Positions 47,051 to 63,750 of a stretch of DNA of 64,000 nucleotides are shown here, piece by piece. The number at the start of each line of letters is the position of its first letter. Position 1 is the stretch's first letter. The stretch is taken from NCBI RefSeq assembly GCF_900112985.1, contig NZ_FONS01000016.1, forward strand, positions 1 through 64,000. The letters run 5' to 3'. Below the pieces are notes generated by a model, which saw nothing but the letters and a program-made list of their open reading frames with translations, ran no database searches and was not told the origin of the DNA. Origin of the DNA: Pedobacter antarcticus. GTDB taxonomy: Bacteria > Bacteroidota > Bacteroidia > Sphingobacteriales > Sphingobacteriaceae. The position numbers and the translations under genes were made by a program.

Positions 47051-48403
47051 TTACATTTTTTGTCCGCTTCTGGTTTTACCGTTAACGGATATTTTTATTA
47101 TGTAGGAATTAGTATGCTGTGCTTTTTCAAAGGTTATTTCGAAGTTTTCCTGTTCTTTCAGAAAGAAATGAGTGGCATCTGTGGCAGACATTTCTGCCCT
47201 CGGACCCTGTTTTGGATAGGCAACTAATGCACCTGCTTCAAGTTTAATCTCCAATTCTAAATTGGATTCTTTGATTTGATATGTTCCCAGATACTTTTTA
47301 AGCTGGTCTTCGTGTAATTTTACGGCATTTTTTGCATGAGGCAGCGTGTAGGGCTGCTTATAAAGGATTGCTACGATCATTTTAGTGATATTGTCCAGGC
47401 CAGGCGTTTCGGTATTGTCGAGGAGTATGATGCAAATATTATCATCAATGATTCTTGCCAGATTACTTCTGAAACCCCAGAAACCGCCACTGTGTGAAAC
47501 TATCCGTTTATTATAAAGGGAATCAACAGTCCAACCATAGCCGTAATTATGAAATTTATTCGGGCTATACATTTTCTCCGCCATGGCTTTGCTGATTAAT
47601 CGGTTAGCATTAAGCGCTTCATGCCATTTAAAAAGATCCCCGACGGTAGAATAAATTGAACCCGCTGCGTATAGAACGGTAGAATCGGCAATTGGAGCTA
47701 CTTTAGTATAATCTTTTCCAGAATCGGAATAATAACCGGTTGCTTTTACAGAGTCATTTAAATTTGCATAGTCGAAACCACTATTTGCCATATCTAAGGG
47801 TTTGAAAATGTAGGCGCGTATGGCCTGATCATATCTCATCTTAGTGATTTTCTCAATAATATAACCTAACAACATATATCCTGAATTCGAATATTTCCAA
47901 TCTGTGCCCGGCTGAAAGTCAAGCTTTTTATCCTTAAAAAGCGAAAGCATTGTTTTCTGATCCGCAGGTTTGCTCGCTGCATTGTACATAAAGTCCGCAT
48001 TTTGCACATAGTCATAGACTCCAGAGGTGTGTGTAAGCAGGTTTTCAATGCTAATGCTGTCAGCGTGTGGGAAGTCGGGGAAGTACTTACTTAATCTGTC
48101 ATCCAGCGAAAGCAGTTTAAGTTCCGAAAGTTTCAGAATCATCACAGAAGTGAAGGTTTTTGTAATGGATGCTGTCAAATAGACTGTTTTTTCGTCATTA
48201 AATGTTTGCTTCTGGATGTCCTTTACTCCATATCCCTTTTTCAGCAATATCTTACCTTGTTTTGAGACTAGAACAGAACCGTTAAATTCCTTAATACTTG
48301 CGTAGGCAGTTATCAATTCATCTATTTTTTGAGTATCGGTTTGCGCCATTGCCATATCTGAAAACGTTATTAACAGATATATTATCCCAATTATATTTTT
48401 CAT
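47051..48403 (-). CDS. Serine hydrolase, beta-lactamase/class C-like family
   Basis: A 450-residue periplasmic serine hydrolase with a signal peptide (about 1-20, ending AMA). The class C/PBP motifs are Ser79-I-T-Lys82 (TASITKTFTS), Tyr-Ser-Asn in WKYSNSGYMLLGYI and HSGG in VSHSGGFWGF. A C-terminal domain of about 100 residues follows (LGTYQIKESNLELEIKLEAG), as in D-aminopeptidase or esterase relatives. It may be a peptidase or esterase rather than a drug-hydrolysing enzyme; the family label does not by itself mean resistance. It is flanked by hairpin copies A and B. Confidence 0.88.
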   Translation of the reverse strand: MKNIIGIIYLLITFSDMAMAQTDTQKIDELITAYASIKEFNGSVLVSKQGKILLKKGYGVKDIQKQTFNDEKTVYLTASITKTFTSVMILKLSELKLLSLDDRLSKYFPDFPHADSISIENLLTHTSGVYDYVQNADFMYNAASKPADQKTMLSLFKDKKLDFQPGTDWKYSNSGYMLLGYIIEKITKMRYDQAIRAYIFKPLDMANSGFDYANLNDSVKATGYYSDSGKDYTKVAPIADSTVLYAAGSIYSTVGDLFKWHEALNANRLISKAMAEKMYSPNKFHNYGYGWTVDSLYNKRIVSHSGGFWGFRSNLARIIDDNICIILLDNTETPGLDNITKMIVAILYKQPYTLPHAKNAVKLHEDQLKKYLGTYQIKESNLELEIKLEAGALVAYPKQGPRAEMSATDATHFFLKEQENFEITFEKAQHTNSYIIKISVNGKTRSGQKM

Positions 48404-48633: not shown

Positions 48634-48713
48634 TAAATAAAAAAGTCTTTATGTTTTAAAGGGCCTCACAGCTCTGCTGTAGCCCAATTAAAACATAAAG
48701 ACTTTTTTATTTA
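48634..48713. repeat. 80-bp hairpin element, copy B
   Basis: A perfect 26-bp arm (48634-48659 with 48688-48713) around a 28-base core GGGCCTCACAGC-TCT-GCTGTAGCCC. It has the same size and architecture as copy A, with the core inverted and the outer part of the arm changed on both sides so that pairing stays perfect. Confidence 0.88.
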
Positions 48714-49086: not shown

Positions 49087-49166
49087 AAAATAAAAAAGTC
49101 TTTATGTTTTAAAGGGCCTCACAGCTCTGCTGTAGCCCGATTAAAACATAAAGACTTTTTTATTTT
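49087..49166. repeat. 80-bp hairpin element, copy C
   Basis: A perfect 26-bp arm (49087-49112 with 49141-49166), core identical to copy B but for one base. It lies ten bases from the stop of the esterase gene and can terminate it. The outermost pair is A-T where copy B has T-A. Confidence 0.88.
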
Positions 49167-49176
49167 GTAGAAAAAT

Positions 49177-49968
49177 CTATCTGGTTTTCTGATGACTGAA
49201 CAACCATGCTAACAGCTCCGGTTCAGCAAACGCACTATCCCAACTATTATGATTGGCTTCCGGATAAACCGTAAATTTAACTTCTTTACCTATAATTTTA
49301 AGCTGGTTGGCGATAGATTTTGAAAATGCAGGATTGACAACATCATCTTTACTACCATGGAAAATCCATAGCGGAACATTCTTATATTTTTCGACATTAG
49401 CCACATTGTCGCCCCCACAAATACTGAATGCTGCGGCAAACGTTTTCGGTTTACGTCTCAGGATTTCATAGGTACCCATTCCACCCATAGAAAGACCACC
49501 GACATAAACCTGATTTAGGTTCACGTATGGTTTTTTTAGTGTTTGATTTACTAATCCAAGCAGGGCGTGCATAGATTTTGTCGGTTTTCCGCCCTTTTGG
49601 AAGTCAAATCTTTCGTTAGACCCCGTTGGGGCAATGATAACATTAGACCAATAGCTGCTTTGGGCACATTGCGGAAAGATAATTATTGCTGGAAAGTTCT
49701 TTCTAACCTCTGATTTTAAAAATAGATTGCCACCGTGTGTTAGCTGGCTGCTATTATCACTTCCTCTTTCACCCGATCCATGAAGGAAAAATAAAACAGG
49801 ATATTTTTTGGCGGGGTCAAAGTTCTCCGGCATGAGAATTCTGTAGGCCAGTGTATCCTTACCTTCTGTATAGATTTCCTTTTCATATTTACTAAATTCC
49901 TGAGCCTGACAGCTTATGCTAAAAAGCAGGGATATGATAAAGCAGGCGAAGCTATGGAAGTATTTCAT
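49177..49968 (-). CDS. Secreted alpha/beta-hydrolase (esterase, prolyl-oligopeptidase-like)
   Basis: A 263-residue alpha/beta-hydrolase with a signal peptide (about 1-22, through SISCQAQ; Cys20 could be a lipid site). The oxyanion region is FFLHGSGERG, the nucleophile is Ser160 in GGLSMGGMG, the acid is Asp208 or Asp209 in GSKDDVV and the histidine is His240 in EANHNSW. Such proteins in polysaccharide loci often act as carbohydrate esterases; the substrate is unknown. It is the last gene of the locus, separated from susD by a terminator-like hairpin, and hairpin C follows. Confidence 0.87.
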   Translation of the reverse strand: MKYFHSFACFIISLLFSISCQAQEFSKYEKEIYTEGKDTLAYRILMPENFDPAKKYPVLFFLHGSGERGSDNSSQLTHGGNLFLKSEVRKNFPAIIIFPQCAQSSYWSNVIIAPTGSNERFDFQKGGKPTKSMHALLGLVNQTLKKPYVNLNQVYVGGLSMGGMGTYEILRRKPKTFAAAFSICGGDNVANVEKYKNVPLWIFHGSKDDVVNPAFSKSIANQLKIIGKEVKFTVYPEANHNSWDSAFAEPELLAWLFSHQKTR

Positions 49969-50050: not shown

Positions 50051-51766
50051 TTAATAACCTGTACTTTGTTTAAGCACTCCACCACTACGGTCAATTTGTT
50101 GCTGAGGGATTGGGAAGTGCGTATCACGTGCTTCAATGGTTAAACCTTTCAAATAGTTAAAGTAGCCACCTTCGAAGCCAAAATAGCTTTCCAGTGTTTC
50201 TTTAGCAATACCCCAACGTACCAGATCATAGAAACGGTGTCCTTCCATGGCTAACTCCAGTCTGCGCTCGAAACGAACTGCATTTCTTGCATAGGTTGGG
50301 TTAGGGAATGAAGTATACTGTCCAACTTTGTAGTTCGCTGCAGGTGCACCACCAATAGTTTTTCCCGGAAGAAGTGCAGCGCGGGCGCGTACCGCATTAA
50401 CCAATGTCATAGCTCTGCCCAGATCACCCGTTTCAACTGCACATTCTGCAGCCATCAGGTAAACGTCGGCTAAACGAATCAGGTTTACATTCAAACCTGT
50501 AATGTTCGTATTACCAGGACCTGTACCACTTGCAATTTGTGCCGCTTCAATCGTGTTTTTGTAATTTACGAAAGGTCCGCCATTTGACGCATCACGAATC
50601 CATGAGTCACCAGCCATAATACCCCAGTCACGGAAAGGAACCCCTCTTCTGCCCATAGTATAATCAATCCTTGGATCAAGCGCCAGTGTTTGGTCTACCT
50701 TGTAAGCTGCTTTTTGAGCTGCCGTTAAACCAAAGTCAGATTTGTAAGGGTTGGTTCTATAAGAACCGTCCAGTAAAGGAAGTCCGTTAGCATCAACTTT
50801 ATAGGCACTAGCCAGATCAACAGAAGGTTGAAAAAATCCACAGCAGGCGATTGGTAAACCATTTCCATAAGGGAAGTTCAGCATATCACCTACATTACCA
50901 TTTTCACCACCAGTACCATCTGTACCAACAGAGTGTTGAACCGTAACGATTGATTCCGGTCCGTTTTCTTTAGTGATATCAAAGTTATCAGTGAAAGCGA
51001 GCGTATTTAATGCCGGTTTGGCAAGAATTACAGCATTCAGTTGCGCATAAGCCTCAGGAAATTTCTTTTGATAAAGTAATACCTTACCTAAGTATGCCTG
51101 TGCTGAGTACTTGTCCATGCGGCCAATTTCACCTTTTGGTTTAGCTGTTCCAAGGTTTGCAACTGCAAATTCAAGATCGGCCTGAATTTCAGGATAAATA
51201 TCCTTGTCATTCGGAACAGTAGGTGTTGTTGTAGTCTCAGAGATATAAGGTACATCTTTGAATGCACGTACCAGGAAGAAATAATAGTGAGCGCGCAATA
51301 AACGTGCTTCAGCCTGAATTTCTTTTTCTCTCTCTGCACCAAACTTAGTACCACCGTTACCGGCTTGCAGCGAAGTCAGAATCTTCAGCGTGTTATTTGC
51401 CCGTTGGATGCCTTCAAAACATCTGTTCCACATATTCTCCAGATTATCATTAACGCTGGTAGGCGAGTGTTGCTCAAGCGCATTCATTTCTGGCTGATCC
51501 CCGTTACTGGATCCTTTATGGGCGTTATCAGAAGTAACTTCTCCGAGTATCCATTGACTTGGACCGGCTCCGTAGTTTCCCCAGGTACCATCTATGTTTC
51601 CATTGAGTAGACCATAAGTACCGATCAGTAAACCTTCAACACCGTCCTGGCTGGTTAGCTGTTCTTCGGTTAATTCTCCCTGCGGTTTTTTATCCAGAAA
51701 GTCCTTCGAACAGGAAAGTATACTGAATAATAATATGGTGACTGCTATATATTTTAAGTTTTTCAT
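50051..51766 (-). CDS. SusD/RagB lipoprotein (partner of the frameshifted SusC)
   Basis: A 571-residue surface lipoprotein with signal and lipobox (ILLFSILSC, Cys19). TPR-region marks are LLRAHYYFFLVRAFKDVPYI, and the C-terminal RRLELAMEGHRFYDLVRWG and THFPIPQQQIDRSGG are typical. It is intact although the susC gene 122 bases upstream carries a frameshift. If that SusC is dead, this protein would lack its barrel unless it works with the second SusC. Confidence 0.95.
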   Translation of the reverse strand: MKNLKYIAVTILLFSILSCSKDFLDKKPQGELTEEQLTSQDGVEGLLIGTYGLLNGNIDGTWGNYGAGPSQWILGEVTSDNAHKGSSNGDQPEMNALEQHSPTSVNDNLENMWNRCFEGIQRANNTLKILTSLQAGNGGTKFGAEREKEIQAEARLLRAHYYFFLVRAFKDVPYISETTTTPTVPNDKDIYPEIQADLEFAVANLGTAKPKGEIGRMDKYSAQAYLGKVLLYQKKFPEAYAQLNAVILAKPALNTLAFTDNFDITKENGPESIVTVQHSVGTDGTGGENGNVGDMLNFPYGNGLPIACCGFFQPSVDLASAYKVDANGLPLLDGSYRTNPYKSDFGLTAAQKAAYKVDQTLALDPRIDYTMGRRGVPFRDWGIMAGDSWIRDASNGGPFVNYKNTIEAAQIASGTGPGNTNITGLNVNLIRLADVYLMAAECAVETGDLGRAMTLVNAVRARAALLPGKTIGGAPAANYKVGQYTSFPNPTYARNAVRFERRLELAMEGHRFYDLVRWGIAKETLESYFGFEGGYFNYLKGLTIEARDTHFPIPQQQIDRSGGVLKQSTGY

Positions 51767-51888: not shown

Positions 51889-54078
51889 CTAGAAACCCAG
51901 GTTTACTCCAATTAAGAACTGACGCGGAATCGGATAAACTCCACGGTCTACACCAGGAGCTGAGAAAGTGTCAAATGATTGACCAACTTCCGGATCAAGT
52001 CCTGTGTATTTGGTAATTGTAAATAAGTTGGTCGCGCTTACATATATTCTGAGCTTGTTAATTCCTGTTTTTGTTTTGGATGCATTTTCCATAGGAATGG
52101 AATAACCAATCTGCAGATTTTTCATTCTGAAGAAGCTGCCATTCTGCACATAATAACTTGATGAAGCATATTCCAGGGTAGATCCACCTACATATGAAGA
52201 TGGAATCTGGCTATCAGGATTAGAAGGGCTCCATGCATTTAATAAACGGGTACTTCTTGCTCCGTCAAAACTTGGGAAATCTGTAAAATAACGATTAACA
52301 TCATATAGGTCATTTCCTTGAGAACCATTGAAGAAGGCGGCGAAATCCCAGTTTTTATAGCTGGCATTGAATCCTAATGAATACAGAAAATCAGGATTAG
52401 GATCTCCGATAATAGTTCTGTCTTCAGGTGTAAGTGCACCATCTCCATTGACATCTGCATATTTGAATCCACCAACACGAGCTCCTTCATATGACGGACT
52501 ATTTTTCACATCATCAGCGTTCTGATAGATTCCAGCCACTTTGTAACCATAGAATGAACCAAAAGATTCTCCAACTTTCAGAAGACTGGTTGTAAGACTT
52601 CTATAGAAACCGTAAGGCTGCTCACTAACGTCATCAGAAAGTTTAACGATTTTGTTGACGTTTCTGGAAATATTAGCCATGATATCAAACTTAAATGGCT
52701 TGTCGTTGTTGCGGCCGTAATGATAAGCCAAGGCAAGTTCAACACCTTTATTCGACATATCGCCAATATTTACGTAGGGCGAAGTACCGCCACCTACCGC
52801 CGTCGCCGGAAGAGGAACCCGGTACAGCATATCTGATGTTTTCTTGTTATACCAGTCAAATGATCCGTCAAATACACCGTCAGCTAAGGTGAAGTCAACT
52901 CCAAGATTTAGTGATTTCAAAGATTCCCATTTTACACCGGTATTAGCATAGGAGTTTTGCCATACACCTGCAACGATTCCATTGCCACCACCCATACCAT
53001 AGCCTGACTGGATAATGGAATTGCGGTATCTGTTCAGATATTGATTCGCGTCAATACGTTGGTTACCGGTTTCACCGTAACCTGCGCGGAATTTTAAATC
53101 TGTTAACCAGCTGACGTCTTTAAGGAAATCTTCTTCAGAGATTCTCCAGGCCACACTTGCAGCAGGAAATACCCCATATTTATTCTCCGGACCGAAGTTG
53201 GATGATCCATCCCTTCTAACTGTAATGCTAGCCAGGTAACGATCGTTATAGGCGTAATCTGCACGGCCAAAGAGCGAGAATAATGAACCTAAAGCACCAA
53301 AACTTCCGTTAGAGATAGCGGATGCACCATTATTCAGATAATAATAATTTGGATCTCCAAGCAGGAAGAAGTCGTTTCTTGCGGCGGTAGTCTCTCTGCT
53401 TGATGATTTGATGGCTTCAGTACCAAGCAAAATACCTAAACGGTGTTTCTCATTGAATACTTTGTTGTAATTTAATGTATTTGTCCAGGTCCATTCGGTT
53501 CTGTAGCCGTTGACTTCGGTTAGGCTATTGGAGGTATTACCTTCCGAGAACTCCAGATTGGGGTAACGCATTTCTATACGACTGTAATTCTCATAACGTA
53601 AACCAAAGCTGGTTCTGGCAACAAGACCGTCTATGATATCTGCTTCTGCGAATACATTACCGAAGAAGAAATTACTTTTGCTCAGATTTCCTTTTTGTCT
53701 GTCCAATACAGCAATTGGGTTTTCTGCATTACCTAAACGGCTACCACGGCTACCTGCATAATTACCCTGTATATCATAAACAGGAACAATCGTTGGCATA
53801 CGATATGCCCAGCCGATGGGACTACCTTCACCTTGGTCTTCACCCGCAGTTGCCGTGTTTACGCCCATACCGTAAGCTTCACTATAGGAATATTGTGCAT
53901 TCTCCCCAAAACGGACTTTTTTGATGTTGGTGTTAGAACGGAGATTGTAACGTGTAAAACCAGTATTTTTGATGGTACCTTTCTGATTCAGGTAACCTCC
54001 GGTGAATGCATATGTTGCGTTTTCACTACCACCAGTACTACTTAACTGATAGCTTTGAACGGGGGCTGGTTCTGTCAT
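51889..54078 (-). CDS. SusC/RagA receptor, C-terminal part after a frameshift
   Basis: 729 codons of a TonB-dependent barrel beginning MTEPAPVQSYQLSSTGGSEN, the family segment that normally follows the plug, and ending in ...IGVNLGF. It has no signal peptide and cannot be exported on its own. It belongs to the same gene as the frame at 54075-55106. Confidence 0.9.
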   Translation of the reverse strand: MTEPAPVQSYQLSSTGGSENATYAFTGGYLNQKGTIKNTGFTRYNLRSNTNIKKVRFGENAQYSYSEAYGMGVNTATAGEDQGEGSPIGWAYRMPTIVPVYDIQGNYAGSRGSRLGNAENPIAVLDRQKGNLSKSNFFFGNVFAEADIIDGLVARTSFGLRYENYSRIEMRYPNLEFSEGNTSNSLTEVNGYRTEWTWTNTLNYNKVFNEKHRLGILLGTEAIKSSSRETTAARNDFFLLGDPNYYYLNNGASAISNGSFGALGSLFSLFGRADYAYNDRYLASITVRRDGSSNFGPENKYGVFPAASVAWRISEEDFLKDVSWLTDLKFRAGYGETGNQRIDANQYLNRYRNSIIQSGYGMGGGNGIVAGVWQNSYANTGVKWESLKSLNLGVDFTLADGVFDGSFDWYNKKTSDMLYRVPLPATAVGGGTSPYVNIGDMSNKGVELALAYHYGRNNDKPFKFDIMANISRNVNKIVKLSDDVSEQPYGFYRSLTTSLLKVGESFGSFYGYKVAGIYQNADDVKNSPSYEGARVGGFKYADVNGDGALTPEDRTIIGDPNPDFLYSLGFNASYKNWDFAAFFNGSQGNDLYDVNRYFTDFPSFDGARSTRLLNAWSPSNPDSQIPSSYVGGSTLEYASSSYYVQNGSFFRMKNLQIGYSIPMENASKTKTGINKLRIYVSATNLFTITKYTGLDPEVGQSFDTFSAPGVDRGVYPIPRQFLIGVNLGF

Positions 54079-55106
54079 CTCTTCAAACCAATTGGTTCCT
54101 TGTTTATTAGCTTTGGTAATCTGATAAAAAGTTTGGTATCTCTGGTGTAATTATATTTCGACGGATCTGCATCTGCAGCAGTTACATCCTGACCATTTGC
54201 ACCACCTGCTACCAGGTATTCTGGAAGTGTCGGCGTAGAACCGCTTCCATAATTTGCACCGGCGTCAATGGGAAGTCCTGCATTGGTATATCCATCGAAG
54301 ATATATTGCGCATATTGTTGTGGGTTCATCATTTTAGGGAATGTACTTTTTCTAGGTGCCGAAATACCTACATAAGCATCTAAATTGATTTTAGGAGGCC
54401 CTGCAATTCCTTTTTTTGTCGTAATAATTACAACACCGTTATTTGCTCTTGCTCCATAAATTGACGCTGAAGACGCATCTTTCAGTACCTGAAGACTCTC
54501 AATGTCATTTTGGTTTAACCAGTTAAGATTACCTTCATAAGGTACTCCGTCCACTACATAAAGCGGCTCATTGTTATTAATTGTACTGTTACCACGAATA
54601 CGGATTTGTGGCGTAGAACCTGGCGCACCATCGTTGACGATCTGTACACCCGGGGCCTTACCTTGTAAGGCTTCTACTGCGCTGGCAGCCGGTTGTGCTT
54701 TCAGTTGTGCTACGTCAACAACCGCTACTGAACCAGTAAGATCTTTCTTCCGTTGTGCGGTGTAACCCGTTACAACGACTTCAGTAAGATCATTAGAATT
54801 AGATTGAAGTGTTACGTCAATTGATTTTTGCTGGCCGACGGTAACTTCGCGTGTTCCGTATCCAATAAATGAAATAACCAGCACATCAGAAGGACCGGCC
54901 TGAATAGCAAAAGCACCATTGGCATCGGTCATTGTTCCGGAAGCTGAATTTTTGATTTTCACCGAGGCACCAATGACTGGCATCTTGTCGTCACTTGCGA
55001 CGACTTTTCCGGTAATTCTGGTTTGCGCATGCACCGAAAATGCGATACACAAACTCATGAGCAAAAGAACGGAGGCTCTTTTGAAAAGGGGTAAAATTTG
55101 TTGCAT
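54075..55106 (-). CDS. SusC/RagA receptor, N-terminal part before a frameshift
   Basis: 343 codons: signal peptide (about 1-27, ending VHAQ), carboxypeptidase-D-like domain (TRITGKVVASDDKMPVIGAS onward), plug with LTEVVVTGYTAQRKKDLTGS and DGVPYEGNLNWLNQNDIESL. The last 14 or so residues (IRLPKLINKEPIGLKR) are out of frame. As made, it would be a plug without a barrel. Confidence 0.9.
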   Translation of the reverse strand: MQQILPLFKRASVLLLMSLCIAFSVHAQTRITGKVVASDDKMPVIGASVKIKNSASGTMTDANGAFAIQAGPSDVLVISFIGYGTREVTVGQQKSIDVTLQSNSNDLTEVVVTGYTAQRKKDLTGSVAVVDVAQLKAQPAASAVEALQGKAPGVQIVNDGAPGSTPQIRIRGNSTINNNEPLYVVDGVPYEGNLNWLNQNDIESLQVLKDASSASIYGARANNGVVIITTKKGIAGPPKINLDAYVGISAPRKSTFPKMMNPQQYAQYIFDGYTNAGLPIDAGANYGSGSTPTLPEYLVAGGANGQDVTAADADPSKYNYTRDTKLFIRLPKLINKEPIGLKR

Positions 55107-55317
55107 AAGATTTAATTTGGTTAGGGTTAAGATTTTTAAAGATGTTACATAGTGTTACTCGATAATTGGTTTAGGGGGTCAATTCTTTTTTCGAAAATAT
55201 TCCGGAATAAGAACCGGATCGGAAGAGCTAGTATATACAACTATATAACACGTTTTTTTTGGCTTGAGCTTGCCGGGAGAAACGGGCGTTAATTATATTT
55301 GGTTAAATCTAATTTAT

Positions 55318-55333
55318 GTAATGAATTCATTAC
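55318..55333. promoter_or_regulatory. 16-bp perfect palindrome, possible operator
   Basis: GTAATGAATTCATTAC is fully self-complementary and lies in the AT-rich leader between the GH3 terminator and susC. A dimeric regulator could bind it, but AT-rich palindromes of this size also arise by chance. Confidence 0.3.
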
Positions 55334-55426
55334 TTGCAATAGCTAAATCTATTTTTTTTAATTACGGGCTAAATAATTTCCAATATTGTACTTTCAACAC
55401 TAAGCAACCCAAAATTTTGAAACAAA

Positions 55427-55456
55427 AAAGCCCCCTGAATTAATCCAGGGGGCTTT
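55427..55456 (-). terminator. Intrinsic terminator of the GH3 gene
   Basis: AAAGCCCCCTG and CAGGGGGCTTT form a perfect stem around AATTAATC, with Ts following on the minus strand. It separates the upstream SusC-SusD-GH144-GH3 unit from the second SusC-SusD unit. Confidence 0.88.
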
Positions 55457-55470
55457 ACGCGAAATATAAA

Positions 55471-57765
55471 TTAGTTTGACAATTTAAATGTTGCCTGACT
55501 GACATCACGGCTATTTGAGCCAATAAACACATTGAAGTCTCCTGGCTCAGCAACGTGCTTAAGCTCAGAATTATAGAATCGGAGCATTTCTTCGTCGATT
55601 TTGAAAATTACCTTTTTAGATTCACCTTTTTTGAGGAATATTTTCTGGAAACCTTTAAGTTCTTTAACCGGTCGGGTAACTGAGCCGTAAATATCTTGAA
55701 TGTAAAGCTGGACAACTTCATGTCCGTCATATTTACCTGTATTTTTGACTTCCACTGCAGCTTCCAGATTTCTACCTTTCTGCAAATCGGTACGATTCAG
55801 TTTAACAGGTGAAATACTGAAAGTTGTATAGCTTAAACCGTATCCGAAAGGGTAAAGCGGATCGTTTGAGCTGTCTATATAGCGGGATACAAATTTTTCA
55901 TTCGATACGCCGTTGTATGGACGACCAGTACTTTTATGGTTATAATAGAGCGGAATCTGTCCCATATTTCTTGGGAAGGTTGCTGTTAATTTTCCGGCAG
56001 GATTATAATTACCCATTAATACGTCTGCAATTGCATTCCCAGCTTCAGTTCCGGCAAACCACGTTTCCAGGATGGCTGGTATATTTTCATCTTCCCAGGT
56101 AAGTGTTAAAGGACGGCTGTTCATTAATACAAGAACGATAGGTTTACCGGTTTCCTTTAATGCTTTCAATAATTTCTGCTGATTCGGTAAAAGGTCCAAA
56201 TTCGTGCGGCTTGTAGCTTCTCCACCCATAATTGCGCTTTCTCCTAATACTACTACAGCAATTTCTGCTTCTTTTGCAGCCTTCACTGCATCTAAAATCA
56301 ATTCATCCGGGGATTTTGAATCTGCATGGATTTCTGCACCATTTGCATTGATCTGTTTTAAAATATGAGGATCATCAACCAGGTTAGCACCTTTAGCATA
56401 AACGATTTTAAGGTCTGGCGCCATATTTTTTAGGCCAGTCATTACACTGACGGCTTTTTTCCAGTCGCCGGCAGCACTCCAGTTACCGATCATATCACGT
56501 TGGTTATCTGCCAACGGACCGATCAAAGCAATTTTAGCGTTTTTGCGCAGTGGGAGAAGTTGATTCTCATTTTTTAATAAGACCATTGAAGCAGCGGCAA
56601 TTTTTCTTGCATCATTTCTGTTTGCTGCAGATAGAATTTCAGTTTCCGCTCTTTTCTCGTCCACATATTTAAACGGATCGGCAAAAAGACCCATTCTGTA
56701 TTTCATTTCAAGGATTCGGCGGCAGGCCAGGTCAATTACGTCAATACCAATCTTCTTTTCATCCAAAGATTTTTTTAGAGTTTTTAGAAATCCCTCACTG
56801 ACCATATCCATATCTGTTCCTGCTGACACAGATCTTGCGCTTACAGTTTGCAGGTCACCTAATCCATGTGCCACCAGCTCACTCACACCGGTATAGTCAC
56901 TAACAACAAAACCTTTAAAACCCCATTGGTTTCTGAGCAGGTCTGTCAATAGCCAGTGGTTAGCAGTTGCCGGAACACCGTTAATGTCATTAAAGGATAC
57001 CATCACCGTTTCTGCACCAGCATCAATAGCTGCTTTATATGGAGGAAGATATTCATTGTACATTCTAATCGGACTCATGTCAGTAGTATTATAGTCTCTT
57101 CCCGCCTCCGCTGCACCATATAACGCAAAGTGTTTCACACAGGCAAGGATAGCATCTCTATTGGCCAGACTGTTAGTTTGATATCCCTTAACCATAGCCG
57201 CACCGATCAGTCCGCCCAGGTAAGGATCTTCACCAGAACCTTCTGACATTCTGCCCCATCTTGGATCCCGGCTAATGTCGACCATCGGCGAGAAAGTCCA
57301 GTTTAGTCCGTCTGCACTTGCTTCACGTGCAGCGATCCGGGCACTTTTTTCGATCAGGTCCATATCCCATGACGTGCTTAGCGCTAAAGGGATAGGGAAA
57401 ATAGTTTTATGTCCGTGAACAACGTCATATCCGAATAACAATGGAATTTTTAACCTGGAATTGGTTACAGCACGTTGCTGCAGTTTTCTAACCGCCTGGG
57501 GAGTGAAAGTATTGAATACACCCCCAACGAGTCCCTGGTCAATTTTTTCATCGACACCTTCACTTAGTATTGGTCCGGTCACATCAAATCCGACAGCAGG
57601 TAAATTTAACTGTCCGATCTTTTCCTCGATAGTCATTCTAGACATGAGTTCATTGACAAAAGCGTCCATTTTAGGGTCTTTCGAAACAGCGGCTTTCTGC
57701 TGTCCGATCGCACTCCCGCCTGTTAGCAAAGCTGTCAGCAATAAAAGGGAATTAATTCGTTTCAT
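55471..57765 (-). CDS. GH3 beta-glucosidase (BglX-like), periplasmic
   Basis: A 764-residue glycoside hydrolase family 3 enzyme with a signal peptide (about 1-22, ending SAIGQ). The barrel has VFNTFTPQAVRKLQQRAVTN and LFGYDVVHGHKTIFPIPLAL. The nucleophile aspartate is in GFKGFVVSDYTGV. The second alpha/beta domain includes AVVVLGESAIMGGEATSRTN, and a fibronectin-III-like domain ends the protein (about 660-760). It removes glucose from the non-reducing end of gluco-oligosaccharides. Next to GH144 it is probably a beta-1,2-oligoglucan glucosidase, like BT_3567 of Bacteroides thetaiotaomicron (recalled, not compared). Confidence 0.94.
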   Translation of the reverse strand: MKRINSLLLLTALLTGGSAIGQQKAAVSKDPKMDAFVNELMSRMTIEEKIGQLNLPAVGFDVTGPILSEGVDEKIDQGLVGGVFNTFTPQAVRKLQQRAVTNSRLKIPLLFGYDVVHGHKTIFPIPLALSTSWDMDLIEKSARIAAREASADGLNWTFSPMVDISRDPRWGRMSEGSGEDPYLGGLIGAAMVKGYQTNSLANRDAILACVKHFALYGAAEAGRDYNTTDMSPIRMYNEYLPPYKAAIDAGAETVMVSFNDINGVPATANHWLLTDLLRNQWGFKGFVVSDYTGVSELVAHGLGDLQTVSARSVSAGTDMDMVSEGFLKTLKKSLDEKKIGIDVIDLACRRILEMKYRMGLFADPFKYVDEKRAETEILSAANRNDARKIAAASMVLLKNENQLLPLRKNAKIALIGPLADNQRDMIGNWSAAGDWKKAVSVMTGLKNMAPDLKIVYAKGANLVDDPHILKQINANGAEIHADSKSPDELILDAVKAAKEAEIAVVVLGESAIMGGEATSRTNLDLLPNQQKLLKALKETGKPIVLVLMNSRPLTLTWEDENIPAILETWFAGTEAGNAIADVLMGNYNPAGKLTATFPRNMGQIPLYYNHKSTGRPYNGVSNEKFVSRYIDSSNDPLYPFGYGLSYTTFSISPVKLNRTDLQKGRNLEAAVEVKNTGKYDGHEVVQLYIQDIYGSVTRPVKELKGFQKIFLKKGESKKVIFKIDEEMLRFYNSELKHVAEPGDFNVFIGSNSRDVSQATFKLSN

Positions 57766-57789: not shown

Positions 57790-59151
57790 TTATTTGGCTA
57801 TGGCCGGGCTTTCGATACTCAGTCTTTGCAATCCGGTTTTCACATCCGGGCTGCTCATAAATAATTTCCAGAGCAGGCCGCTGCGGTAGTTTTCAATCAT
57901 GCATATAATCGGTCCCTGATCAATAGCCAGATGCGATTTTGCATACCAGTCATGTTCTTCGCTGAAGCCATCTGCGAAACCATACTCGGTCCAGATCTTC
58001 GGACCCAGATCAAAATAGAAATGCTTCAGTGCCTGCATACTATATTCCGGTGTATATGGAAAAGCTGATAAGGCTGCGGTTGGCGTAATCACACCCAGAT
58101 CCTCTGTTGGAGAATGGGCAGCATAACCCTGCCAGCTATCGCCTGCAGTTAAACCCCAGCTATTTTCATTATATCCTTTATATTTTTTTGGATTTTCAAT
58201 GCAATAAGCCCTGTTAATCAGGGTGTGATTTTTATTCTGTTCAAAATAATCTCCGTACTGGTCTTTTAAACCACGTGGGTCAAGACCGGTAAAAGAGTAT
58301 TGCGAAAAGAAAAGCGGACCACCGTAATCAAAACCAAAAGGAAGTGTAATGCCCTGGAATTTTTTACCATTGAAAAAGGTATTGTTATTTGCCCATCCAT
58401 CGTCGTATACACGTTTAGTGATCGGAAATTTCGGAGAAGATGCAGCAAGTACATAAGTGATAAAACACTCATTCCAGCCTTTAATCTGATGGTTCATGCT
58501 CCATCCGTTGTTCGGACTCCAGTGCCAGTACAATACATTCTGCTGTTGCGTAAACCAGCTCCATTCAATACCCTCCCACATCCACAGGATTTTGTTCCTG
58601 ATATCTCTCTCCACTGCATTGTCTCCATCATAATATTGTTTAGCGGTCAGTAAGCCCTGGAAAAGGAGTGAAGTCTCTACGATATCAGCTCCATCATCTT
58701 TAGGACTGAAACGGATTACTTTTCCGGTTTCACCATTTAACCAATGCGGGAAAGCACCATGAAACATATCTGCTTTATATAAGAAATCGACAATTTTCTT
58801 AGTTCTTGCTGCAGCCTGCTCACGGGTTATGAACTTTCGCTCCGAAGCAACAATGATAGACATCACGCCGAATCCTGTACCACCAGTGGTTACCACTTCG
58901 TTACCGTATTCAAAAGCGACATTGCTCCGCTCACGTGCCATTCCACTTACCGGATGGCCAAAGTCCCAGAAATACCGGAAGGTTTGTTTTTGAACCAGAT
59001 CCAATAACTGATCGTCAGTCAGGTCTTTTTGAATTTTCATCTGCGGTTTGATGGCATCTGCAGAATTTTTTTGTGCACAGGCTGTCAGGGTAAGGCAGGA
59101 TAAACTAAAAAATAACAGCCCGGATAATAAGTAAGTATTGAATTTGATCAT
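57790..59151 (-). CDS. GH144-like glucanase (glucoamylase-family domain) lipoprotein
   Basis: A 453-residue protein with an alpha/alpha-barrel glycoamylase domain, the group containing endo-beta-1,2-glucanase of family GH144. The ATG at 59151 is chosen because it opens a lipoprotein-type signal (MIKFNTYLLSGLLFFS, with Cys in LTAC). Family segments: LLDLVQKQTFRYFWDFGHPV, EYGNEVVTTGGTGFGVMSII, WHWSPNNGWSMNHQIKGWNE and GLTAGDSWQGYAAHSPTEDL, ending with DGFSEEHDWYAKSHLAIDQG. It probably cleaves beta-1,2-glucan into sophoro-oligosaccharides, which the downstream GH3 (24 bases away) would finish. Specificity is inferred from the pairing. Confidence 0.88.
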   Translation of the reverse strand: MIKFNTYLLSGLLFFSLSCLTLTACAQKNSADAIKPQMKIQKDLTDDQLLDLVQKQTFRYFWDFGHPVSGMARERSNVAFEYGNEVVTTGGTGFGVMSIIVASERKFITREQAAARTKKIVDFLYKADMFHGAFPHWLNGETGKVIRFSPKDDGADIVETSLLFQGLLTAKQYYDGDNAVERDIRNKILWMWEGIEWSWFTQQQNVLYWHWSPNNGWSMNHQIKGWNECFITYVLAASSPKFPITKRVYDDGWANNNTFFNGKKFQGITLPFGFDYGGPLFFSQYSFTGLDPRGLKDQYGDYFEQNKNHTLINRAYCIENPKKYKGYNENSWGLTAGDSWQGYAAHSPTEDLGVITPTAALSAFPYTPEYSMQALKHFYFDLGPKIWTEYGFADGFSEEHDWYAKSHLAIDQGPIICMIENYRSGLLWKLFMSSPDVKTGLQRLSIESPAIAK

Positions 59152-59209
59152 TTTATGATATGAATAAGGCTGGTAGTTTCTCACTACCAGCCTTTAAGAT
59201 TAAAAAATA

Positions 59210-60700
59210 TTAATATCCAGGATTTTGAGTAAGCAAACCGCCGCTTCTTTCAATCTCCTGATCAGGCACAGGCCAGATTTCGTTCTTGCCGGCTTTCCAA
59301 CCTTTAGGACCGAATACTTCAGTACCTCTTCCCTGACGGATTACATCAAAGTAACGGTCACTTTCTAGTGCAAGTTCCACTTGTCTTTCTTTGTAAATTG
59401 CAGTTTTTAATGCTGTTTTATCTGTTGCAGTTACATCAGGTAAAATACCAGTTTGAGTGCCTCTGGCTCTTGCGCGTACTTTATTAAGAGAACTTAAAGC
59501 CAGGGAAGTATTACCCATTTCATTTGCGGCCTCTGCATTGATCAGCAGAATATCTGCAAAACGAAGGACTTTGACATTTTGCTGCGCTCCTTCATTAAAA
59601 CCAGATACCCACATCGAAAATGGAACATATGATTTCTGGTTGTATCTTGGGTTTGGTGTAGTTGTTGGAATCTTGTCACCCTGTGGAGTAGTTTCACCTC
59701 TGTAGAGAATAGTTGCATCTCTTCTCGGATCTCCGGTTTCAAAAGCTGTATTCAAAGCATCAGATGGTACGTTGAAGCCCCATCCACCACCACCACCCAC
59801 GACGCCTGGTACGCCTTGTACCTGGCTGTATTGTGAGTTAGAAGCATCTTTATTACCCGGAAGTAATTCACACTGTACTTCAAATAAAGATTCTGAGTTA
59901 TTTTTGTTTTGCGTACGGAAACCTTTTTCGAAATCAGGGAACAGGCTATAGCCCATAGTCATCACCTGGTTAGTTAGGGATAACGCATCTGCCCATTTCT
60001 GCTGATACATCGCAACTTTGGCATGCAGGCCTATGGCAGCACCTTTGGTTGCACGCCCGATATCGTTTGTGCCGTAAGCTTGTGGTAATACCGAGGCTGC
60101 TTCGTCCAGATCTTTTTCAATCTGTGCATAAACTTCTTCTTTAGTCGCTCTTGGAATATTATACTCAGTTTGGTCTTTTGGAACAGTCAGTCTAAGTGGC
60201 ACACCACCGAAAGCTCTGACTAATCTAAAGTAAGAGTATGCCCGGATAAATTTAGCTTCTGCCAGATAACGGGCTTTCAGGCTTTCATCCATTGTAATTG
60301 CCGGAATATTATCCAGTACCTGGTTAGTCAGGTTAATATTTTGATATTGTCCTGTCCAGAAACCTAAGAAAGAGCCCTCTGTAGAAGTTACGGTGAAAGT
60401 ATCATAAAGATTAAAGAACGTTGCATCGGTTGCCGTACTGCCTTTATCTGCTTCGTCGGAAGGTATACTTTCGATTGCCAGGGCAGGGAACGCTGTGTTA
60501 TTCCACGTTCTTAAATTGGCATACATTCCATTGACAGCTTTAGTAGCATCTTCCTGGGATTTCCAGAATTGTTCCGATTCCTGCTGACCCTGAGGGTCAA
60601 TGTCAAGAAAACTTTTCTTGCAGGAAGTAGTGAGTAGAACTGTTGATAATAAACCAACAGCGCACCACCTTTGAATACTTGTGTTAAAATATGTTTTCAT
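59210..60700 (-). CDS. SusD/RagB lipoprotein of the glucan locus
   Basis: About 496 residues. The ATG at 60700 (MKTYFNTSIQRWCAVGLLST) is used since it opens the lipoprotein signal (lipobox LLTTSC); the frame extends eight codons further to a TTG. N-terminal mark EQFWKSQEDATKAVNGMYAN, TPR mark AKFIRAYSYFRLVRAFGGVP, and C-terminal IYKERQVELALESDRYFDVI and IWPVPDQEIERSGG are typical. It pairs with the SusC at 60739-63750 and precedes the GH144 gene, so it probably binds the same glucan. Confidence 0.95.
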   Translation of the reverse strand: MKTYFNTSIQRWCAVGLLSTVLLTTSCKKSFLDIDPQGQQESEQFWKSQEDATKAVNGMYANLRTWNNTAFPALAIESIPSDEADKGSTATDATFFNLYDTFTVTSTEGSFLGFWTGQYQNINLTNQVLDNIPAITMDESLKARYLAEAKFIRAYSYFRLVRAFGGVPLRLTVPKDQTEYNIPRATKEEVYAQIEKDLDEAASVLPQAYGTNDIGRATKGAAIGLHAKVAMYQQKWADALSLTNQVMTMGYSLFPDFEKGFRTQNKNNSESLFEVQCELLPGNKDASNSQYSQVQGVPGVVGGGGGWGFNVPSDALNTAFETGDPRRDATILYRGETTPQGDKIPTTTPNPRYNQKSYVPFSMWVSGFNEGAQQNVKVLRFADILLINAEAANEMGNTSLALSSLNKVRARARGTQTGILPDVTATDKTALKTAIYKERQVELALESDRYFDVIRQGRGTEVFGPKGWKAGKNEIWPVPDQEIERSGGLLTQNPGY

Positions 60701-60738
60701 CTGTATAAGATTTGTCTTGATCAAAAATTGCTGTGGAA

Positions 60739-63700
60739 TTAAAAAGTAAGGTTTACACCTAGATTGTAAGTCGCAAAAAGTGGATATACGTTGATATCTA
60801 CACCTGCATTGGTTGGCGTACCTCCAACTTCCGGGCTGAAACCTTTGTAACCAAAGAAGTTCACTGCATTTTGTGCATTTGCGAATACACGAAGTTTTTT
60901 AATTTTCCATTTAGACGTCATCATCTCCGGTAATGTATAACCTAACTGAATATTTCTCAATCTTACATAAGCACCGCTTTCTACCCAGAATGAGTTCGCC
61001 AGATAGTTTCTGCCACCGCTCATATTTGCAGAAGGGTAGGAGTTAGAAGTACCCGGACCATGCCATCTGTTATCGAAGAAATCTTTAGTGTAGTTTTCGT
61101 TACCGAATCTTGCTGCCAGGTTTCCGTTATAAACATCTACACCTGCAACACCCTGAATATCCAAAGTCAGATCGAAATTTTTATAAGCAAAATTGGTATT
61201 CACACCGTATGAATATTTAGGATTTGGATTTCCAAGATACTGGCGGTCGTTACCGTCAATTGTGCCGTCTCCATTGTTGTCGGCATAAATAAAGTCTCCC
61301 GGTTTTGCGTCAGGTTGTGCAGAAGCTGTAACTTCCTGGGCAGTTTGGAAAATACCGGTAACCTGGTATCCGTAGAACATACCGATTGCTTGTCCGGCAA
61401 CAGTTCTTGTAGGTAAAACACCACTGGTTAAACCTGCGCCACCTTTATCAATTGGATTGGCTCCTGAAGTTACATTCAATACTTTATTATTGTTTATACC
61501 CACATTCGCACTGATCGAATATGTTAGTCCATTCGAAGTCTTATCTGACCAGGATGCTACAAACTCGTAACCGCGGTTACGGAAATCTGCCTGATTCCCA
61601 ATCAGTGTACTGTTTTCCGTACCCAATGATCCCAGGATTGGAATATCAAAGATTGCCTGCTGTGTTGTTCTGTTATAATAGTCAACCTCCACATTTAATC
61701 TGTTGCTTAAAAAGCCCATTTCTAAACCGATATCAGTTCCGGCACTTCTTTCCCAGAAAATTACTGGTGGAACCAAAGTTCTGATACCCGCACCTGTATT
61801 TGGCTGTCCGTTAAAGAAAGCGATTAAACCTGCACTTTGATCTACTGTTTGTGTACTTGGGTTAATCGGAACACCTGCGTTACCTACTTTACCCCAGCTA
61901 CCTCTCAATTTTAAGTTTGAGAACACTTCCTGATCTTTCATGAATTCTTCATTACTCACTACCCAGCCTGCGCCGATTGAAGGGAAATAACCCCAAAGAT
62001 CACTTCCTCCAAAAAACTGGGAAGCAGCATCAGCTCTTAATGAAGCATTTAACAGGTATTTGTTTTTGAAACCGTAATTCACACGACCAAAATAAGAAGT
62101 TGCTGTATTAACAGATCCTTTATCCGTAATCTGACGGGAACTTGCATCGGCAAGGCTCAGGTACAAATCACCATCTTTATTATAGGGTACGTTGTTTCCT
62201 GAAGCATTAATAGTGTAAGATCTGTAACGTTGTGCAGTCTGGCCGGCCAGAACAGTTAAGCTATGATCTCCGAATTTATTATCGTAAGTCAGCGTGTTTT
62301 CCAGAATCCAGTTTCTATTTTCAATCCTGTCAATCGCTAGAATACTGGTGTTTGACACCTGCGCCACCGTAGCATTGTAGACAGGGGTATAGGATCTAAC
62401 TTCTTCCTGGCTAAAATCTCCACCCGCACTGGTTTTGAAAGTAAAATGTTTAGCAAATTTTAATTCAGCATAAACATTACCAGTGGCTTTATAAAATTTA
62501 TTAGTCTGGTTAAAGAAATCCATAGTTGCCTGTGGATTTGTTGCGCTACCGTTTCCTAATTTATAAATAGCCGGATCACCGTAAGATCCATCCGGATTAA
62601 ACACAGGAATAATTGGTGCTGCGGAATATAACCCACGGAAGATAGTCGTTGGTGCATCACTTGAAGTACTGGAAACACCCGTCACATTATATCCAATTTT
62701 CAACCCTTTGAAAATCTGAAAATCATTGGATAAACGAGCAGTATATCTTTTATAGTTGTTTTTCTCTACAATTCCGTCCTGATTCAGATAACCCAGTGAA
62801 AAGTTATAGCTGGATTTTTCAGAAGCACCATTAATAGAGATCTGGTGGTTGGTTACCATTGCAGTACGCAGAACCTGATCGTACCAGTTTGTACCTTTAC
62901 CAAAGTTAGGATTTTTCAGAAGCAATGAGTCAGCAGCTATCATTGTAGCCTCATTAACTGCTGTGGCATATTCCTGACCATTGGTCATTTTTACGCCGTT
63001 GGTTACGCGCTGTATGCCGATTGACCCGTTGTAGTTAATAGTAGGATCGCCGTTTTTACCACGGACAGTTGTAACCAGTACTACACCATTCGCAGCCCGT
63101 ATACCATAAATTGATTGGCTGGATGCGTCTTTTAATACACTGATGCTGGCAATATCTGCCGGATTTAAAAAGTTAATATCATCATACCATACACCGTCAA
63201 CTACATATAATACATTCGTATTACCGTAGATCGTACCCGTACCACGTATTGTGATTTTAGGAGACTTACCCGGAGCACCTACGTTAGTTACAGATACACC
63301 TGCAACTTTTCCCTGTAACGCACTCACCGGGTTGGTTGACGCTTGTTTGGAAATGTCTTCACCTTTAATGGTAGCAACAGATCCGGTAACATCAACTTTT
63401 CTTTGTGTACCATAACCTACTACGACAACCTGCTCTAGTTGTTGTGAGGATGAAGCCAGAGAAACATTGATTGCTGTACGGTTATTTACAGGGATCTCCT
63501 GTGTGGTGTAGCCTATATAGGTGAAGACCAATGTGGCATTACCTGGTGCGCTAATGGAATAATTTCCATTAACATCTGTTTGTATTCCTGTAGTGGAACC
63601 TTTAATCATTACGCTTACAGCCGGCAGGGTTGTTTGATCCTGGCCATCTGAAACTTTACCCTTAACCGTGATGTTCTGGGCAAAGGCAGCGTTAATAAAG

Positions 63701-63750
63701 AGTAAACTGAGAAAAGTGAAAACAGAAATTTTTGTAAAAATTCTTTTCAT
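60739..63750 (-). CDS. SusC/RagA TonB-dependent receptor of the glucan locus
   Basis: A 1003-residue outer-membrane transporter. Signal peptide (about 1-24, ending AFAQ), carboxypeptidase-D-like domain (ITVKGKVSDGQDQTTLPAVS onward), plug opening LEQVVVVGYGTQRKVDVTGS and DDINFLNPADIASISVLKDA, and barrel ending LGVNLTF. There is no STN domain, so regulation by a hybrid two-component sensor or another regulator beyond the window is more likely than by an ECF sigma. It is intact, unlike the second SusC of the locus. Confidence 0.95.
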   Translation of the reverse strand: MKRIFTKISVFTFLSLLFINAAFAQNITVKGKVSDGQDQTTLPAVSVMIKGSTTGIQTDVNGNYSISAPGNATLVFTYIGYTTQEIPVNNRTAINVSLASSSQQLEQVVVVGYGTQRKVDVTGSVATIKGEDISKQASTNPVSALQGKVAGVSVTNVGAPGKSPKITIRGTGTIYGNTNVLYVVDGVWYDDINFLNPADIASISVLKDASSQSIYGIRAANGVVLVTTVRGKNGDPTINYNGSIGIQRVTNGVKMTNGQEYATAVNEATMIAADSLLLKNPNFGKGTNWYDQVLRTAMVTNHQISINGASEKSSYNFSLGYLNQDGIVEKNNYKRYTARLSNDFQIFKGLKIGYNVTGVSSTSSDAPTTIFRGLYSAAPIIPVFNPDGSYGDPAIYKLGNGSATNPQATMDFFNQTNKFYKATGNVYAELKFAKHFTFKTSAGGDFSQEEVRSYTPVYNATVAQVSNTSILAIDRIENRNWILENTLTYDNKFGDHSLTVLAGQTAQRYRSYTINASGNNVPYNKDGDLYLSLADASSRQITDKGSVNTATSYFGRVNYGFKNKYLLNASLRADAASQFFGGSDLWGYFPSIGAGWVVSNEEFMKDQEVFSNLKLRGSWGKVGNAGVPINPSTQTVDQSAGLIAFFNGQPNTGAGIRTLVPPVIFWERSAGTDIGLEMGFLSNRLNVEVDYYNRTTQQAIFDIPILGSLGTENSTLIGNQADFRNRGYEFVASWSDKTSNGLTYSISANVGINNNKVLNVTSGANPIDKGGAGLTSGVLPTRTVAGQAIGMFYGYQVTGIFQTAQEVTASAQPDAKPGDFIYADNNGDGTIDGNDRQYLGNPNPKYSYGVNTNFAYKNFDLTLDIQGVAGVDVYNGNLAARFGNENYTKDFFDNRWHGPGTSNSYPSANMSGGRNYLANSFWVESGAYVRLRNIQLGYTLPEMMTSKWKIKKLRVFANAQNAVNFFGYKGFSPEVGGTPTNAGVDINVYPLFATYNLGVNLTF

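Follow-up and report, generated by a model that had tools for sequence, protein, structure and literature searches.

SusC/RagA receptors (TIGR04056) are TonB-linked proteins of the outer membrane, and the gene that was analysed in this study, SusC1, was found in a window of Pedobacter antarcticus DNA (the whole stretch analysed, 64,000 nucleotides). Its two fragments match successive parts of the family model, and it shares with the family the plug, the signature and the SusD partner; it differs in lying in two frames, whereas the 40 other copies in the genome are whole. The best solved relatives are the SusC homologues of PDB entries 5t3r and 6zlt, which we take to be the Bacteroides levan transporter, with E values of 6e-108 and 4e-108, respectively, for the barrel part and, against 5t3r, of 4e-62 for the N part. 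Unlike SusC1, both are intact, and the similarity gives nothing firm on the SusC1 substrate.

Phase variation of SusC/SusD genes has been described in Bacteroides fragilis, which thus shares the family with SusC1, but the mechanism given in the relevant passages of that report is DNA inversion or recombination (PMC4747536). An inverted-repeat search upstream of SusC1 revealed no recombination features of this type. In the homopolymer contingency loci of Neisseria meningitidis, a surface protein gene is likewise shifted in frame by a single base; in the sections of that study on the tracts, however, these are long and strain-variable, compared with three or four bases at SusC1 (PMC5084427). According to the same sections, the tract search started at a length of 6, and variability predominated among tracts of 8 or more (PMC5084427). 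A review of phase variation, in the part concerned with its definition, requires high rates and reversibility (PMC11868660), and the frameshift passage in PMC8845570 concerns assembly checks. A limited literature search gave no instance of homopolymer-driven switching in a SusC gene.

Organisation of the split receptor gene

Based on the list of open reading frames and the domain profiles, SusC1 (55106-51889, minus strand) is one SusC/RagA receptor in two frames, which is followed by its SusD partner:

54075..55106, minus strand: SusC1 5' fragment, 343 aa, with a CarboxypepD_reg-like domain, the TonB plug and the SusC signature
54075..54078, minus strand: ATGA overlap, in which the stop of fragment 1 overlaps the first ATG of fragment 2
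51889..54078, minus strand: SusC1 3' fragment, 729 aa from its first ATG, with most of the beta-barrel
50051..51766, minus strand: SusD1, 571 aa, intact

The original prediction of a minus-strand SusC gene split into ORFs at 54075-55106 and 51889-54078, one base apart in frame and with an undamaged SusD partner, was borne out in all of these points. The 5' fragment, which covers positions 2-249 of TIGR04056, matches Plug PF07715 and TIGR04057 and ends in a tail of about 18 out-of-frame residues before its stop. The 3' fragment covers positions 286-981 and scores 537-545 bits against a cut-off of 368. With a score above this cut-off, a plug domain and a SusD gene downstream, SusC1 has the features of the receptor family; plug and barrel, however, lie in two frames here, while 63 of 64 relatives have them in a single open frame. 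The mutation was called from the assembled sequence, and an error in the consensus would give an identical picture.

Position of the missing base

The closest intact relative compared, Pedobacter cryoconitis Xaverov 94 (G068; 91% DNA identity), was used as the reference; G068 was assigned to this strain because its locus L113 is contained without a mismatch in L032 of Xaverov 94. Two neighbouring runs are relevant:

54126..54130, plus strand: run of five A (A5), of equal length in G068
54132..54134, plus strand: run of three T (AAA on the coding strand), one base longer in G068 and the place of the length difference

The A5 run, which had been named as the site of the defect, is present as described, but it is not one base short: its length is the same in G068, and the alignment places the difference in the run at 54132-54134, which adjoins it across one G/C base and has three bases here and four in G068. 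A base loss within the A5 run was rejected, because matching G068 would then require two additional substitutions. The comparison with close relatives that had been recommended thus gave the expected one-base difference from G068, although not in the A5 run. The earlier choice of that run was a natural one, because some of the distant orthologues, which have different codons at the break site in the alignment, carry a six-T run there. The difference at 54132-54134 is the only frame-changing one between SusC1 and its G068 counterpart; the sole other length difference, of 12 bases near 53922, is in frame, and there is no further frame-breaking damage.

This correction of the position also makes switching by slippage unlikely. 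Slipped-strand mispairing in a homopolymer, by which the gene would be turned on and off, had been proposed as one option, and a one-base difference in a run within a surface receptor gene is what it would produce; SusC/SusD phase variation is, moreover, known in Bacteroides, though via DNA inversion in the passages concerned (PMC4747536). A run of three versus four bases is, however, shorter than slippage switching demands, and the orthologues share no homopolymer at this position: among 62 of them, the 27 bases preceding the conserved motif have a maximum run length of 3-6, and the codons vary. Upstream of the gene there are only weak inverted-repeat pairs. Contingency loci have a long tract, which SusC1 lacks, and its relatives have an unbroken frame with varying codons. 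We regard phase variation as exceedingly improbable.

Breaks in relatives and elsewhere in the genome

The search covered 145 genomes of the genus, including the genome under study, and the SusC1 gene was found in 65. A break at this site was found in none of the 64 relatives that carry the gene; 63 have it as a full-length single frame, and the remaining copy (G152) ends with its contig but is continuous across the site. Two of the 64 fell outside the strict limits, and their assignment was made by inspecting the individual rows. The search returned 138 loci, of which 90 were within the score limits and in one frame (including duplicates between collections, e.g. L113 inside L032), three were copies of the window and 45, which fell below the limits, were not counted. 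SusC1 thus carries a disabling mutation that is absent in its orthologues (0/64), as is expected of a pseudogene.

Among the 41 SusC genes of the genome that score above the TIGR04056 cut-off, SusC1 is the sole split one and 40 are unbroken; no split was seen in the 57 rows of SusC genes from G068. A comparison of 400 kb of contig 24 and of the window contig with G068 took in 238 orthologous genes (282 kb), and the frameshift in SusC1 was the only one among them. The in-frame stop candidates of this genome in the same comparison are all close to gene starts. Among the RND transporter genes, none of the 20 full-length ones is split by a frameshift, and one has two in-frame stops. In RND gene L212 of this genome (G000:C20:28000-32500), two close in-frame stops are flanked by a segment of 436 codons and one of 646, and it is likely another pseudogene. 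Because 40 of the 41 SusC genes are unbroken and only one of the 238 compared genes is frameshifted, indels are not frequent in this assembly.

These counts bear on the main rival explanation, in which the consensus dropped one base and the SusC1 of the cell is intact. One-base deletions are a frequent consensus error. Such an error would agree with the unbroken frame in all 64 relatives, with the conservation of SusD1 and the upstream region, and with a remainder of SusC1 that is open and has dN/dS values far below 1 (0.156 and 0.095). However, the run has merely 3-4 bases, while the window alone holds 270 five-base and 142 longer runs; no second frameshift occurs in the 238 compared genes, the 40 other SusC genes or the 20 RND transporter genes; and the error would have had to fall in a gene that happens to be under loosened constraint. 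We consider a sequencing or assembly error possible, but the less likely account. The split of SusC1 is probably a recent, ordinary loss of function through one lost base, and of the three options that had been put forward (loss of function, switching and base-calling error), true loss of function is the best supported. It is the loosened constraint on SusC1, together with the scarcity of other indels, that tilts the balance towards a real mutation. If real, it adds one more gene loss to a genome that carries some forty genes of the SusC family.

Selection on SusC1 and SusD1

Relative to G068, dN/dS was 0.156 in the barrel part of SusC1 and 0.095 in the N part. Of 35 gene pieces in the syntenic stretch, with a median of 0.027, the barrel part has the highest value, which also exceeds those of all 34 intact orthologue pairs (median 0.030, range 0.016-0.086); these were barrel-part orthologues at a similar synonymous distance drawn from 63 of the 64 orthologues. 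The barrel value is still far below 1. Residue differences in SusC1 also fell more often on sites with a conservation of 90% or more across the genus (22/66) than in the controls (40/365; Fisher 1.4e-5), which were 15 pairs picked by the analyst from the 34, some of them sharing sequences.

The conserved-site changes were assigned to both branches, with 11 here and 7 in G068, and of the polarised changes 34 fell on this branch and 22 on that of G068 (two-sided binomial 0.14). The latter ratio does not establish a loss of constraint confined to this branch. As the excess changes are spread over both branches, much of the excess cannot stem from the break. The sequence comparison suggests that the constraint on SusC1 was loosened, or its function changed, before or apart from the frameshift and in both lineages. 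By a rough calculation, in which the neutral expectation for the branch is about 390 amino-acid changes and the excess about 23, SusC1 would have been without function for about 6% of the branch, and for at most about 13%.

The SusC1 differences are mildly clustered, with 23 gaps of 3 or less compared with 15.8 expected (p 0.014). A single recombined tract was rejected as the source of the divergence, since the clustering is only mild. In residues 80-95 of the C fragment (51889-54114), a cluster of changes lies at near-invariant positions, several of them on the window's own branch.

In contrast to SusC1, the constraint on SusD1 is ordinary: its dN/dS is 0.045, compared with 0.023-0.067 in seven other pairs (19 sequences compared). 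Such normal constraint would not fit a pair that had long been unused. A long shot, in our view, is that SusD1 works with a different SusC of the cell while SusC1 is being lost; if true, this would be a departure from the one-to-one pairing that is usual for SusC and SusD. The unequal constraint on the two genes is the only part of the locus that is perhaps of interest to a specialist. In one Sphingobacterium multivorum record, the usual SusD1 place (L057:8239-9954) holds three short ORFs, which are either a broken SusD or the result of sequencing errors.

Predicted consequences of the split, and recoding as a rival reading

Under the loss of function that we favour, one base would have been lost from a run of four A on the coding strand, the length seen in G068. 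The frame would then close about 18 codons on, beyond the plug domain and with just the first part of the barrel encoded, which would make a complete beta-barrel impossible. Fragment 2, if begun at the overlapping ATG, would have no signal peptide and should remain in the cytoplasm. A restart at ATGA might hold ribosomes on the message and so spare SusD1 from polarity. As there would be no complete barrel, the SusC1/SusD1 transporter should be inactive in the isolate; we infer that the cell carries the mutation and that transport has been lost.

The arrangement of the two frames could also be read as recoding, in which a -1 ribosome slip between 54153 and 54077, or a restart at ATGA, would still give a working product, whether fused or in two pieces. 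The shift required is indeed -1, the stop and the start overlap in ATGA, and the frames overlap by about 76 bases. This overlap (54153-54077) is, however, all that they share, and it contains no X XXY YYZ heptamer; the two heptamers in fragment 1 (54654 and 54417) precede 54153, where the second frame has a stop, and the A7 run at 54411-54417 was rejected as a slippery site, as the second frame is shut by the same stop. The RNA past the site folds no better than shuffled sequences (z -0.74), so that the overlap has neither the slippery heptamer nor the downstream structure of a programmed -1 frameshift. Moreover, the ATG of fragment 2 is already an internal Met codon in G068, the fragment, judging from its position, would be without the signal peptide region that export requires, and the relatives use a single frame. 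We consider recoding or a two-piece receptor highly improbable, and an ordinary loss of function remains the preferred reading.

Gene neighbourhood

Upstream of SusC1, the window contains a second SusC/SusD pair and two genes for putative carbohydrate-active proteins:

55107..55470, minus strand: SusC1 upstream region, 94% identical to G068
55318-55333: perfect palindrome of 16 bp, in an upstream block unchanged in G068
55427..55456, minus strand: intrinsic-terminator-like hairpin of 13 pairs with a T tail, between GH3 and SusC1, identical in G068
55471..57765, minus strand: GH3 beta-glucosidase (BglX-like), in the neighbouring unit
57790..59184, minus strand: PF10091 'glucoamylase' protein, whose close solved relatives include an endo-beta-1,2-glucanase (5gzh)
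59210..60724, minus strand: SusD2, intact
60739..63750, minus strand: SusC2, intact, 1003 aa

The retention of a second SusC/SusD pair in the locus had been noted as part of the case for loss of function. An intact pair is present, but a role as backup is weakly supported, because the hairpin separates the units, SusC2 is divergent (only about 32% identity to the SusC1 orthologues) and the orthologues of SusC1/SusD1 elsewhere are placed differently. Besides L032, none of 28 listed loci with SusC1/SusD1 orthologues has GH3 or PF10091 neighbours in the flanking sequence covered, and ten neighbour proteins from four orthologue loci are unrelated to the window proteins. Membership of SusC1/SusD1 in a beta-1,2-glucan utilisation locus (GH144-like and GH3) was rejected in view of the intervening hairpin and of orthologues without such neighbours.

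The palindrome at 55318-55333 was rejected as a regulon site, as the whole genome holds one exact copy. The promoter motif TTTG-N-TAnnTTTG gave no match upstream of SusC1, and its four matches in the window are at chance level. The beta-lactamase-fold and esterase genes (47051-48403, 49177-49968) are also fast-evolving, with a dN/dS of 0.12. In the spacer between them lie two 78-nt copies (48635-48712 and 49088-49165) that are 99% identical, each forming a long hairpin with arms of 34 nt; similar copies occur in G068, and they may represent a small repeat of a mobile or terminator-like kind.
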